This document shows, one piece after another, positions 6,667 to 10,458 of a DNA stretch of 37,213 bases. The translations under genes were made by a program, and so were the position numbers. The notes under the pieces are model-generated. The model searched no databases, was not told where the DNA came from, and worked only from the letters and a program-made list of their open reading frames with translations. This stretch comes from a virus, in the IMG/VR virus record IMGVR_UViG_3300037963_000269, positions 1 through 37,213 of that record; one strand, given 5' to 3'. How positions within the stretch are numbered: the stretch's first letter is position 1; each line of letters opens with the position of its first letter.

Positions 6667-8433
6667 ATGACGATGATAAATAAACCACAGATAGATGTCG
6701 AACGCGACAATCTTTTGACAGACTTCGGTAAAGAAGTTCTTCGAGACAGATACATGTTACCCACAGAGAAATCACCCCAGGAAGCATTTGCTAGAGCTGC
6801 CGCAGCTTTCGCAGACTCAGATGCCCATGCGAAAAGGTTGTATGATTACTCATCGAAGCTATGGTTTATGTTTGCTACTCCTATATTATCTAATGGTGGT
6901 ACAGACAGAGGGCTTCCTATCTCATGCTTCTTAAATTATGTACCTGATTCTCGTGAAGGATTGTCAGAACATTATGCAGAAAATATTTGGCTATCAAGTT
7001 CAGGTGGTGGTATCGGTGGATACTGGGGCGACATAAGGTCGCAGGATCAATCAACAAGTAAAGGTAATAAGACTACTGGAGTTATACCTTTCATGCATGT
7101 AGTTGATAGCCAAATGGTTGCGTTTAACCAGGGGGCAACAAGACGCGGGAGCTATGCCAGCTATATGGACATATCACATCCAGAAATTATAGAGTTCATA
7201 GAAATGAGAAAGCCTAGTGGTGGCGATGTTAATAGAAAGAATCTTAATCTACATCATGGGATAAATGTATCCGATAAATTTATGAGAGCATTAGAGAAAG
7301 ATGAAATGTGGAAACTAATTGACCCTCATAATAAAAAAGTTATAAGAGAAATAAAAGCTAGACAACTATGGATTAAAATATTAGAGACAAGAGTATCAAC
7401 TGGTGAACCTTACATTATGTTTAGTGATACAGTTAATAAAGGATTACCAAAAGAATTAAAAGCAAAAGGATTAAAGGTACATCATTCAAATCTGTGTAGT
7501 GAAATTACTTTACCTACTAATCCAGATCGTACTGCAGTGTGTTGTTTGTCTAGTGTAAATTTAGAATACTATGATGAATGGAAAGACGATACACATTTTA
7601 TTGATGATCTTATGCGTATGTTAGATAATGTATTAACTTACTTTATTAAACATGCCCCCGCTCATTTGTGGAGAGCAGTAGCTTCTGCAAAAGCAGAGCG
7701 GTCAGTAGGTCTAGGGGCTATGGGATTTCATTCTTATTTACAGCGTAAAGGTGTAGGATTTAACAGTCCTATGTCTTATGATATTAATAAGAATATATTT
7801 AAACACATATATGATAAAGCTTTAGAATCAAACTTTGCTCTTGGTAAAGTGAGAGGAGAACCAGAGGATATGAAAGGTAGTGGTAAAAGGTTTGCACATA
7901 TGCTAGCCATTGCACCAAACGCTAGTAGTTCTATCATATGCGGAGGCGTATCACCTAGTATAGAACCATTACGTGCTAACGCTTTCACTCAAAAAACTAT
8001 GAGCGGTTCGTTCTTAGTTAAGAATAAATACTTAGAAAAATTATTAGAAGAGAAAGGTAAGAACACTAAAGATGTTTGGAAGACTATTATTTCTAGTAGA
8101 GGATCTGTCGATGCGCTCGACTTCCTCAACGCACAAGAAAAAAATATATTTAAGACGGCCATTGAGATTGATCAAGCGTGGTTGGTTGACTTGGCTGGCG
8201 AACGTCAAAACTATATTTGCCAAGCGCAATCATTAAACTTATTTTTTCCACCTGATGTAAACGTAAGAAGATTAAACAACATACATAAACGTGCGTGGGA
8301 AAATGGATTAAAAACTTTATACTATTGTAGAAGTGAAGCTATTAAAAGAGCAGAGAACATAGCTAATAAAGTAGAGAGAAAAGTTAGACAAGATAGTCAA
8401 GAGGAGGAATCATGCGTGATGTGCCAAGCTTAA
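6667..8433 (+). CDS. nrdA: Class Ia ribonucleotide reductase, large (alpha) subunit
   Basis: A 588-residue R1 protein. The active-site set is complete: Cys87 (PISCFLNY), Asn275-Cys277-Glu279 (NLCSEI), Cys292/293 (AVCCLSSVNL), the paired tyrosines of radical transfer (TLYYCRS near the C-terminus), and a mobile redox tail Cys583-x-x-Cys586. It is much shorter than E. coli NrdA (761 residues): the N-terminal ATP-cone that gives overall dATP inhibition is missing, as in many phage enzymes, so dNTP synthesis would not be shut down by dATP. It reduces NDPs to dNDPs with NrdB (9499) and probably the phage glutaredoxin (11075). ATG at 6667 or 6673 are both possible starts. The last codons contain the Shine-Dalgarno of the methyltransferase gene. 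Confidence 0.93.
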   Translation: MTMINKPQIDVERDNLLTDFGKEVLRDRYMLPTEKSPQEAFARAAAAFADSDAHAKRLYDYSSKLWFMFATPILSNGGTDRGLPISCFLNYVPDSREGLSEHYAENIWLSSSGGGIGGYWGDIRSQDQSTSKGNKTTGVIPFMHVVDSQMVAFNQGATRRGSYASYMDISHPEIIEFIEMRKPSGGDVNRKNLNLHHGINVSDKFMRALEKDEMWKLIDPHNKKVIREIKARQLWIKILETRVSTGEPYIMFSDTVNKGLPKELKAKGLKVHHSNLCSEITLPTNPDRTAVCCLSSVNLEYYDEWKDDTHFIDDLMRMLDNVLTYFIKHAPAHLWRAVASAKAERSVGLGAMGFHSYLQRKGVGFNSPMSYDINKNIFKHIYDKALESNFALGKVRGEPEDMKGSGKRFAHMLAIAPNASSSIICGGVSPSIEPLRANAFTQKTMSGSFLVKNKYLEKLLEEKGKNTKDVWKTIISSRGSVDALDFLNAQEKNIFKTAIEIDQAWLVDLAGERQNYICQAQSLNLFFPPDVNVRRLNNIHKRAWENGLKTLYYCRSEAIKRAENIANKVERKVRQDSQEEESCVMCQA

Positions 8434-9422
8434 AACATTTAGATTTATTTAGTGGTCTTGGTGGTTTTAGTCTAGGTCTTGAAGCCACTGGTGGATTTGA
8501 AACAGTAGCTTTCTGTGACATAGAAAAATTTCCACGTAAAGTTTTGAAACAACATTGGCCTGATGTTAAACAATATAAAGATATAAAGGAGTTAACTTAT
8601 GAGAGATTACAAGAAGACGGGATCGGAGAAATCGACATCATTACGGGCGGCTATCCTTGCCAACCTTTCTCCGTCGCAGGTAGACAAAGAGGTGAGAAAG
8701 ATAAAAGACACCTCTGGCCAGAAATGTTTAGACTTATCCACGAATGTAGGCCCACTTGGGTCATTGGAGAAAACGTTAGTGGACACATTAAACTCGGTCT
8801 CGACACCGTACTTGAGGACTTGGAGAGTGAAGGTTACGCCGCGAGGGCGTTTAGTATTTCAGCTTCTAGCGTCGGTGCCACCCATAAAAGAGAAAGAGTC
8901 TGGATTGTGGGCAACTCCCAACACAATGGATCATCTACCACAGAGAAGTCCAGAAGCATTGAGGAAACAAGCAACGACAACAAGGAAAGGCCGAACCAAA
9001 CCAGCGAATCTACGGGAACAAGTAGATCCAATAGTAATGAAAATGTGGAGAACACCAGACAACCTGGCTGGGGGGAGCAATCTACCTGGAATACAGAAAG
9101 CTTTGGACGAGGGTCATCTAAAACGACCGAGTGGTCAACCAATACAGATACGTCTTCAGGATCAAGTGAGGGAGCCGAGACTATGTCCGACTCCAACAGC
9201 AAGAGATTGGAAGGACGCAGGTCCAAACAGCAACTACGAAAAGATGAGACAGAAAGGACGATTAGCTGGGACGGCTGGTGGGAGTTTGAACCCGACGTGG
9301 GTCGAGTGGCTAATGGGGTACCCAAAAGGGTGGACAGACTTAAAGGACTAGGTAATAGTTTAGTGCCCGCTATACCTTTTATAATAGGGCAATCAATTTT
9401 AAGAGAGGAGTATATATGGTAA
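8412..9422 (+). CDS. DNA (cytosine-5) methyltransferase
   Basis: A 336-residue C5 methyltransferase. Motif I is DLFSGLGG (from Asp11), motif IV GGYPCQPFS with catalytic Cys83, motif VI ENV (120-122), motif VIII KRERVWIV (about 157-164), and motif X GNSLVP (314-319). The segment that should hold the target recognition domain (about 165-285) is rich in Ser, Thr, Asn, Gln and Glu and looks almost unstructured; the reason appears to be a second gene in the +1 frame (8599-9351). GAGGAGGAA (8401-8409) precedes the ATG, which lies inside the 3' end of nrdA. The enzyme probably marks phage DNA against host restriction or alters its expression. The target sequence cannot be predicted from the sequence. 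Confidence 0.92.
   Translation: MRDVPSLKHLDLFSGLGGFSLGLEATGGFETVAFCDIEKFPRKVLKQHWPDVKQYKDIKELTYERLQEDGIGEIDIITGGYPCQPFSVAGRQRGEKDKRHLWPEMFRLIHECRPTWVIGENVSGHIKLGLDTVLEDLESEGYAARAFSISASSVGATHKRERVWIVGNSQHNGSSTTEKSRSIEETSNDNKERPNQTSESTGTSRSNSNENVENTRQPGWGEQSTWNTESFGRGSSKTTEWSTNTDTSSGSSEGAETMSDSNSKRLEGRRSKQQLRKDETERTISWDGWWEFEPDVGRVANGVPKRVDRLKGLGNSLVPAIPFIIGQSILREEYIW
8599..9351 (+). CDS. Overlapping gene nested in the methyltransferase, +1 frame
   Basis: A 250-codon frame lies wholly inside the methyltransferase gene, shifted by one base. It has its own strong Shine-Dalgarno, AAGGAG at 8586-8591, seven bases before ATG 8599. The product is not random-looking: YLRTWRVKVTPRGRLVFQLL (about 70-90), ESGLWATP (about 100), LCPTPTARDWKDAG (195-208) and a C-terminal LNPTWVEWLMGYPKGWTDL (230-248). 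I recall proteins with W-P-TPTARDxKD and LNPxWVEWLMGFPxGWT motifs from phages and mobile elements, often annotated near or as DNA methylases. The nested frame covers the methyltransferase's variable region and most of motif X's lead-in. Function is unknown. Dual coding is inferred; a frame-specific conservation test would decide it. Confidence 0.6.
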   Translation: MRDYKKTGSEKSTSLRAAILANLSPSQVDKEVRKIKDTSGQKCLDLSTNVGPLGSLEKTLVDTLNSVSTPYLRTWRVKVTPRGRLVFQLLASVPPIKEKESGLWATPNTMDHLPQRSPEALRKQATTTRKGRTKPANLREQVDPIVMKMWRTPDNLAGGSNLPGIQKALDEGHLKRPSGQPIQIRLQDQVREPRLCPTPTARDWKDAGPNSNYEKMRQKGRLAGTAGGSLNPTWVEWLMGYPKGWTDLKD

Positions 9423-9502
9423 TAGGATTAGAAATTGTAATCATGGCTTATGTAGTTACGGTTACAGGTGGATTATTATTACAAGCGGCGGGTATCCAAT
9501 GA
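9416..9502 (+). CDS. 28-residue hydrophobic peptide between dcm-type gene and nrdB
   Basis: ATG 9416 follows GAGAGGAG (9402-9409) and overlaps the methyltransferase stop by 7 bases; the TGA (9500-9502) overlaps the nrdB ATG as ATGA. The peptide is nearly all hydrophobic (IGLEIVIMAYVVTVTGGLLL), predicting one membrane helix. It may be a small membrane peptide, or may serve mainly to couple translation into nrdB, which lacks a good Shine-Dalgarno of its own. No family is recognised. Confidence 0.45.
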   Translation: MVIGLEIVIMAYVVTVTGGLLLQAAGIQ

Positions 9503-10458
9503 GTGTATTTAATTCAAGAGATTATTATAAACCATTTAAATATCCGTGGGCTTTTGAAGCTTACGATTTACAACAGAAGATGCACTGGCTACCAAGCGAA
9601 GTGCCCCTTCATGAAGATGTAAACGATTGGAACAACAGAATGAATGATGGTGAAAAGAATTTGGTAAAACAAATACTAACATTCTTTACACAAGGGGATG
9701 TGGATATAGCGCAAGCATACATGGATGTATACATGCCTATGTTTAAACAACCAGAGATTCGTATGATGTTATCAGCTATTGCAACTAGCGAAGCAAACCA
9801 TGCTCACTCGTATTCATTATTAAATGATACAATAGGTATGGATGATGGAGATTATAAAGCGTTCCAAGAAATCACAGCTATGAATGATAAGCATGAGTAC
9901 TTGTGGAAAAACAAAGGGGGCACAGAAGAGGAGAAGATTGTCAGAGACATGGCTGTGTTCTCAGCTTTTGGTGAAGGGCTTCAGTTGTTTGCTAGCTTTG
10001 TAATGCTGCTAAACTTTCAAAGGTTTGGCAAGATGAAAGGCATGGGACAAATTGTCGCATGGTCTATTCGTGATGAGTCGCATCATGTAGAGAATATGAT
10101 TAAGCTAGTGCATGCAGTACTAGATGAAATGCCTCACGTTTGGCATGACAATTTTAAGAAGACTTTATATGATATATGTAGAGACATGGTAGAACTAGAG
10201 GATAAGTTTATCGATCTAGCTTTTGCTATGGGTCCTGTAGAAGGGTTGACTCCAGAAGAAGTCAAGCAATACATAAGACATATAGCGGACAGAAGATTGT
10301 TACAGCTAGGATTAAAGCCCAACTATGGAGTCAAAGATAACCCACTTGAGTGGGTAGACTGGATTGTTGGAGGTGTGGAACACACCAATTTCTTTGAGAA
10401 TCGTAGCACGGAGTACGCAAAAGGCGCACTTACTGGTACCTGGGACGATGCATTTTAA
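9499..10458 (+). CDS. nrdB: Class Ia ribonucleotide reductase, small (beta) subunit
   Basis: A 319-residue R2 protein with the diiron ligands in order: Asp67, Glu98 and His101 (SEANHAH), Glu in GEGLQLF, and Glu/His in RDESHH. Tyr105, seven residues after Glu98, matches the tyrosyl radical position of class Ia enzymes, so a radical-bearing enzyme rather than a Tyr-less class Ic type is expected. The acidic and aromatic C-terminus (TGTWDDAF) would dock on NrdA. It starts at ATG 9499, coupled to the 28-residue peptide. The methyltransferase and its nested gene separate it from nrdA. Confidence 0.95.
   Translation: MSVFNSRDYYKPFKYPWAFEAYDLQQKMHWLPSEVPLHEDVNDWNNRMNDGEKNLVKQILTFFTQGDVDIAQAYMDVYMPMFKQPEIRMMLSAIATSEANHAHSYSLLNDTIGMDDGDYKAFQEITAMNDKHEYLWKNKGGTEEEKIVRDMAVFSAFGEGLQLFASFVMLLNFQRFGKMKGMGQIVAWSIRDESHHVENMIKLVHAVLDEMPHVWHDNFKKTLYDICRDMVELEDKFIDLAFAMGPVEGLTPEEVKQYIRHIADRRLLQLGLKPNYGVKDNPLEWVDWIVGGVEHTNFFENRSTEYAKGALTGTWDDAF

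Follow-up and report, generated by a model that had tools for sequence, protein, structure and literature searches.

Does a single stretch of phage DNA encode both a C5-cytosine methyltransferase and, in another frame of the same bases, a second protein under its own selection, and if so, what is that second protein? The question is raised by a virus record of 37,213 bases (the window) that codes for DNA polymerase A, a UDG-exonuclease protein and both ribonucleotide reductase subunits, and in which a C5-cytosine methyltransferase gene (8412-9422) sits between nrdA (6667-8433) and nrdB (9499-10458). An earlier note had proposed that a 250-codon ORF is nested in the +1 frame of the methyltransferase, with AAGGAG seven bases ahead of its ATG, and both elements are present exactly as described (Table 1). 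The motifs quoted for the +1 product were likewise all found, and VGRVANGVPKRVDRLKGLGN indeed overlies WVEWLMGYPKGWTDL. Hereafter we call the product of the methyltransferase frame (frame 0) alpha and that of the nested frame beta.

The beta ORF lies entirely within the methyltransferase ORF in frame +1, and an in-frame TAA is located two codons 5' of its ATG. At the other end, the first base of motif X of alpha is the last base preceding the beta stop codon (9349-9351).

Table 1. Features of the methyltransferase locus, numbered by position in the window.
Feature	Position	Strand	Description
alpha, C5-cytosine methyltransferase	8412..9422	+	336 aa; motifs I-VIII (8442-8912) and X; variable linker replaces the target recognition domain (TRD)
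Shine-Dalgarno AAGGAG of the nested gene	8586..8591	+	within methyltransferase codons for K-E
beta, nested +1 gene	8599..9351	+	250 aa, ATG start; TRD and motif IX by homology
conserved N-terminal part of beta (TSGQKCLDL ... LRTWRVKVTPRGRLVFQLLASVPPIKEKESGLW)	8710..8910	+	overlies methyltransferase motifs IV-VIII
TRD region	8905..9276	+	beta has three W/C-x-TP repeats; frame 0 has a Ser/Thr/Glu/Asn-rich linker of 122 aa
TP repeats of beta	8905-8931; 9043-9063; 9184-9216	+	LWATPNTMD; MWRTPDN; CPTPTARDWKD
motif IX of beta (GGSLNPTWVEWLMGYPKGWTDL)	9277..9342	+	superposed on alpha EPDVGRVANGVPKRVDRLK (9288-9344)
motif X of alpha (LGNSLVPAI)	9348..9374	+	frame 0

An antisense ORF of 163 aa with a TTG start is also open at 8834-9325 on the minus strand, and is probably a by-product of the double coding. 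Elsewhere in the window, positions 1684-2787 encode one protein that carries both uracil-DNA-glycosylase-like and 3'-5' exonuclease domains (Pfam UDG, E 2.6e-6; DNA_pol_A_exo1, E 9e-11).

The nested frame is a gene

The nested +1 gene is real. Synonymous shuffling of methyltransferase codons in 158 non-redundant loci predicts 1070 stop codons in the +1 frame, and none is observed (0 against 648, 268 and 155 expected by region). The +2 control frame behaves as expected, with 2590 stops observed and 2659 predicted by the same shuffle. Even for the nearest relative, whose sequence is near-identical (L001), shuffling gives 9.2 stops in +1 compared to zero observed. The earlier note had named two outcomes that would refute a nested gene, namely +1 stops beside an intact methyltransferase and a lack of reduced synonymous change in the overlap. 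Neither is seen: no such stops occur among the 158 loci, the +1 protein is carried by 80 of 80 loci fetched with the methyltransferase, and the methyltransferase-synonymous rate, 0.77 ahead of the overlap, drops within it to 0.25, then 0.069 and then 0.031.

Most of beta is matched by the profile of PHROG 1008, a family named DNA methyltransferase (E 2.1e-23; beta residues 13-248 align with positions 39-281 of 329). The +1 protein was found by tblastn in 72 phage records, a scan of viral contigs returned at least 600 matches, and a profile scan located 334 loci in bacterial genomes from many phyla. Paenibacillus phage Diva and a Lacticaseibacillus phage are examples of cultured phages that have it. 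All 242 related loci encode it in the same relative frame of the methyltransferase; 80, 80 and 2 of these had been chosen via the +1 protein, and the remaining 80 via the methyltransferase alone. When 120 genomes from the family of one Paenibacillus genome were searched with the methyltransferase profile, nine gave hits at 1e-40, in 13 places altogether, and the +1 protein is encoded at every one of them. It is absent from L312 and L313, two distant C5 methyltransferases of other genomes. Across hundreds of phage and bacterial loci, this is a very well-supported same-strand nested gene whose translation is inferred. Annotators of single phages had already marked the nested ORF, for example as 'g49 internal gene', and no paper on its nature or spread was found in the literature searched, with most subscription papers lying outside that search.

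The start signal is likewise conserved. In relatives, AAGGAG and the start codon are kept at the same place, mostly right after an in-frame stop, with the full AAGGAG present in 55 of 158 loci (about a third) and none of the motifs tried present in 19. Codon choice in the methyltransferase frame also reflects this signal: in the K-E-L context, Lys is encoded by AAG in 50 of 55 loci compared to 31% elsewhere in these genes (p 2e-20), and Glu by GAG in 37 of 55 compared to 33% (p 2e-7).

Selection is divided between the frames along the DNA

We counted differences between 57 disjoint pairs of related loci and classed each by its effect in both frames, which gives dN/dS-type ratios for each region. 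This is a simple count made without a full overlapping-codon model, and measured baselines guard against the main bias: the null ratio is 0.73 in the methyltransferase before the overlap, and neighbouring genes give 0.72 for a ghost +1 frame and 1.06 for a ghost +2 frame. Constraint on the methyltransferase frame is strong over motifs IV-VIII (0.19), where the +1 frame shows moderate constraint, at 0.41 [0.35-0.48], below the null. Within the TRD region it is the +1 frame that is under strong constraint (0.12 [0.10-0.15], versus a null of 0.72), whereas the methyltransferase frame is unconstrained (1.20 [1.08-1.36], versus a ghost null of 1.06). Over the last 20 or so codons of the overlap both frames are conserved, the +1 value being 0.14.

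The alpha-frame ratio obtained from pairs in this last, short overlap is 0.95 [0.42-2.30], and our case for constraint on alpha here is based not on pair ratios but on 40 of 258 loci (including L096, L112 and L092) in which beta motif IX and the stretch leading up to alpha motif X are consecutive rather than superposed. Both are still conserved when they lie apart, and so, as far as conservation can tell, each string appears to be needed independently, with superposition being a tighter packing of the same parts.

The proposal that both frames are constrained therefore holds for motifs IV-VIII and for the last 20 or so codons, but not for the TRD region, where protein-level selection acts only on the +1 frame and the methyltransferase frame is a drifting linker. 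The low complexity noted earlier in frame 0, at the place where a TRD is expected, was borne out by the composition of this 122-residue stretch. Although it drifts, the linker is kept open: synonymous shuffling of the +1 frame in 157 loci predicts 677 stops in frame 0, and none is observed. This finding indicates that the methyltransferase must be read through to motif X, and that the sequence of the linker is immaterial.

Alpha and beta correspond to parts of a C5 methyltransferase

Alpha matches Pfam DNA_methylase (E 9.5e-45) and PHROG 363 (E 2.4e-80), and carries the motifs that define a C5-cytosine methyltransferase, which are I, IV (PCQ), VI (ENV), VIII (RxR) and X. The P-C-Q, E-N-V and R-x-R residues are invariant in 36 relatives. 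The frame-0 profile aligns to M.HhaI only over residues 12-174 (motifs I-VIII), and then weakly to motif X. Between motifs VIII and IX, alpha has no TRD of its own, as this stretch exhibits neither amino-acid constraint nor alignment to M.HhaI.

Profile comparisons match beta to the second ORFs of split actinophage methyltransferases, in an alignment (Prob 98.9, E 3e-17) that takes in the LTWK stretch, the TP repeats and everything up to motif IX, and to the TRD repeat region of single-chain methyltransferases (Prob 95.5). The conserved N-terminal part of beta also aligns with the split actinophage second ORFs, and PHROG 1008 includes both groups. Given these profile matches and the shared PHROG, beta is, by homology, the half of a C5 methyltransferase that contains the TRD and motif IX. 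The motifs of the +1 product had been taken for those of phage and mobile-element proteins, and this reading did not survive: they are methyltransferase motifs, namely motif IX and TRD repeats. The beta profile yielded no match in PDB or Pfam, and hhalign gave none between beta and the frame-0 methyltransferase family, as expected.

One single-chain relative was modelled with an M.HhaI-like fold (Z 22.7; 3.5 A over 230 aligned residues, with the aligned ranges reaching the C terminus); its catalytic core and motifs IX-X are confident, and its TRD is unresolved (pLDDT about 25-45). AlphaFold modelled beta by itself only weakly (pTM 0.40), and neither Foldseek nor VIA-align gave a meaningful fold match for it. 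A subunit that folds on its partner would be expected to behave in this way, and we neither claim nor deny a fold on this basis.

The frame that holds each part differs among relatives, as does the number of TP repeats. In Pipcraft and its relatives, frame 0 ends directly after motif VIII, and the TP repeats, EWMMG and motif X are found in a second, +1 ORF. The repeats of CheeseTouch are in +1 and its motifs IX-X in frame 0, in Moonbeam all of these (repeats, IX and X) are in frame 0, and single-chain relatives carry the repeats, EWMMG and motif X within one frame.

Two further arrangements were encountered. The single-chain methyltransferases of Cheoctovirus-type actinophages (L250-L282) retain a shorter +1 ORF with the N-terminal part of beta and one or two LPTP repeats, with further repeats, motif IX and motif X in frame 0; here the TRD frames appear to have been exchanged, with both versions persisting. 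In Brevibacillus borstelensis (L099), the beta ORF extends through motif X and frame 0 is without it, as in the split actinophage genes.

Comparison with known split and overlapping methylase genes

The closest precedent is M.EcoHK31I (YGGCCR), whose small gene is nested in the large one in another frame, an arrangement also seen here. Its larger polypeptide holds motifs I-VIII and X, and its smaller one holds motif IX alone (PMC3404938). Both proteins are required in vitro, according to the title of Lee et al. 1995 (cited in PMC3404938), and the system has been used as a naturally split enzyme (PMC3439449). By motif placement and homology, the present locus has the same division, with I-VIII and X in the large subunit and motif IX only in the small one. 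It differs in that the literature places the TRD of M.EcoHK31I in the large subunit, by published prediction rather than experiment, whereas the conserved TRD-like repeats here are in nested beta, and it differs also in the breadth and depth of conservation. Our selection data argue for a TRD in the small subunit in this clade.

M.AquI is likewise a C5 methyltransferase divided between motifs I-VIII and the distal portion of the variable region with motif IX (PMC3404938). However, its smaller subunit has both IX and X, whereas here motif X is in frame 0 and the second gene is fully nested. The split and single-chain DNA methylases of actinophages (Pipcraft genes 75/74, Moonbeam gene 69) have the TP repeats, the EWMMG motif IX and PHROG 1008 in common with beta, but in them either the second ORF, which carries TRD, IX and X, overlaps only partly, or frame 0 holds these elements in whole or in part. 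Finally, out-of-frame HNH endonuclease insertions (the ShiLan domain, PMC11855218) also hide a gene inside a phage methylase gene; unlike beta, the insertion is a mobile, unrelated protein and no part of the methylase.

Proposed mechanism and alternatives

We consider it very probable that a single stretch of DNA here specifies both chains of a two-polypeptide C5-cytosine methyltransferase. Joint action of the two products on methylation, as had been suggested, has the best support of the readings considered, given the homology between the +1 protein and the half of other C5 methyltransferases that holds the TRD and motif IX. Frame 0 would yield alpha, with the AdoMet-binding and catalytic motifs I-VIII, a disordered-looking linker and motif X, and the Shine-Dalgarno within the alpha coding sequence would start beta in frame +1. 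Beta would comprise an N-terminal docking part, a TRD made of W-x-TP repeats, and motif IX, and would end at the start of motif X of alpha. The two are predicted to assemble as one enzyme, with beta determining which sequence is modified and alpha carrying out the methyl transfer. For a phage that encodes a ribonucleotide reductase of its own, this enzyme would probably protect phage DNA against host restriction. The analysis itself establishes both frames, the start signal, the action of selection on each product and the homology of beta; translation of beta, its binding to alpha, a requirement of both for methylation and the protective role are inferences, made without expression, binding or activity data.

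An alternative without an internal start would be a +1 ribosome shift near motif VIII, giving a fusion of alpha motifs I-VIII to the TRD and motif IX. Some actinophages do stop frame 0 just past motif VIII with the TRD next in +1, a layout known with programmed frameshifts. However, about 100 beta codons upstream of the shift point are open (no stops versus 648 expected) and constrained in +1 (0.41 versus a null of 0.73), and a shift at motif VIII would require neither. Codon choice, moreover, preserves the Shine-Dalgarno, and the fusion would be without motif X, making this route very unlikely in our judgment. We regard as very unlikely the possibility that beta is a real but functionally separate protein, such as a counter-defence or regulatory factor, overprinted on the methyltransferase by chance. 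No family member has been assayed and the model of beta alone is poor, which leaves room for such a function, but against it stand the homology of beta, the lack of a selected TRD in the methyltransferase frame, and the fact that beta was never seen without the methyltransferase in the loci examined.

The +1 frame could also be open and conserved merely because the methyltransferase protein forces it to be so, with no second protein at all, and the N- and C-terminal parts of beta do overlie strongly conserved methyltransferase motifs. Shuffles that preserve the methyltransferase protein nevertheless produce 1070 stops where there are none, the TRD region is unconserved in the methyltransferase sequence but conserved in +1, and the C-terminal motifs fall on different bases in 40 loci. 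The stop shuffle and the regional selection ratios refute this explanation, to which we assign practically no chance, and it was rejected.

Implications for annotation and evolution

Beyond the two-polypeptide enzyme proposed for this locus, we think it likely, though with less assurance, that there is an ancient, phylum-spanning clade of C5 methyltransferases in which the specificity domain resides in a nested +1 gene, frame 0 is a free-drifting linker at that place, and the frame of the TRD, IX and X has been exchanged repeatedly between lineages. If true, annotated single-gene cytosine methyltransferases of the clade are half-enzymes, and the published assignment of the M.EcoHK31I TRD to the large subunit would have to be revised. 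The clade would also be a natural set of split methyltransferases with separable specificity subunits. The locus offers a direct view of two proteins evolving on shared bases, with selection on both frames partitioned cleanly along the DNA in hundreds of phage and bacterial loci.

Most records examined annotate only the methyltransferase, or name both frames methyltransferase, and cloning a single annotated gene may therefore yield an inactive or non-specific enzyme.

Several individual records have unusual features. In that of a deep-sea phage (KT997847.1, L082), the methyltransferase annotation covers a fragment of 81 aa, and it is the nested ORF that bears the name 'putative cytosine-specific methyltransferase'; frame 0 was matched in two pieces, and the methyltransferase may be frameshifted in that record. 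In Klebsiella phage YX3973 (L249:1840-3198), the beta ORF continues without a stop into an HNH-endonuclease-like protein (an open frame of 453 aa), of which the record annotates the HNH part alone, as a separate gene. In an uncultured Roseovarius MAG (OX638333.1; L104-L106, L108, L109), the methyltransferase region occurs five times or more, without sequence differences, on one assembled chromosome, and the spacings of the copies suggest a repeated prophage or an assembly effect.
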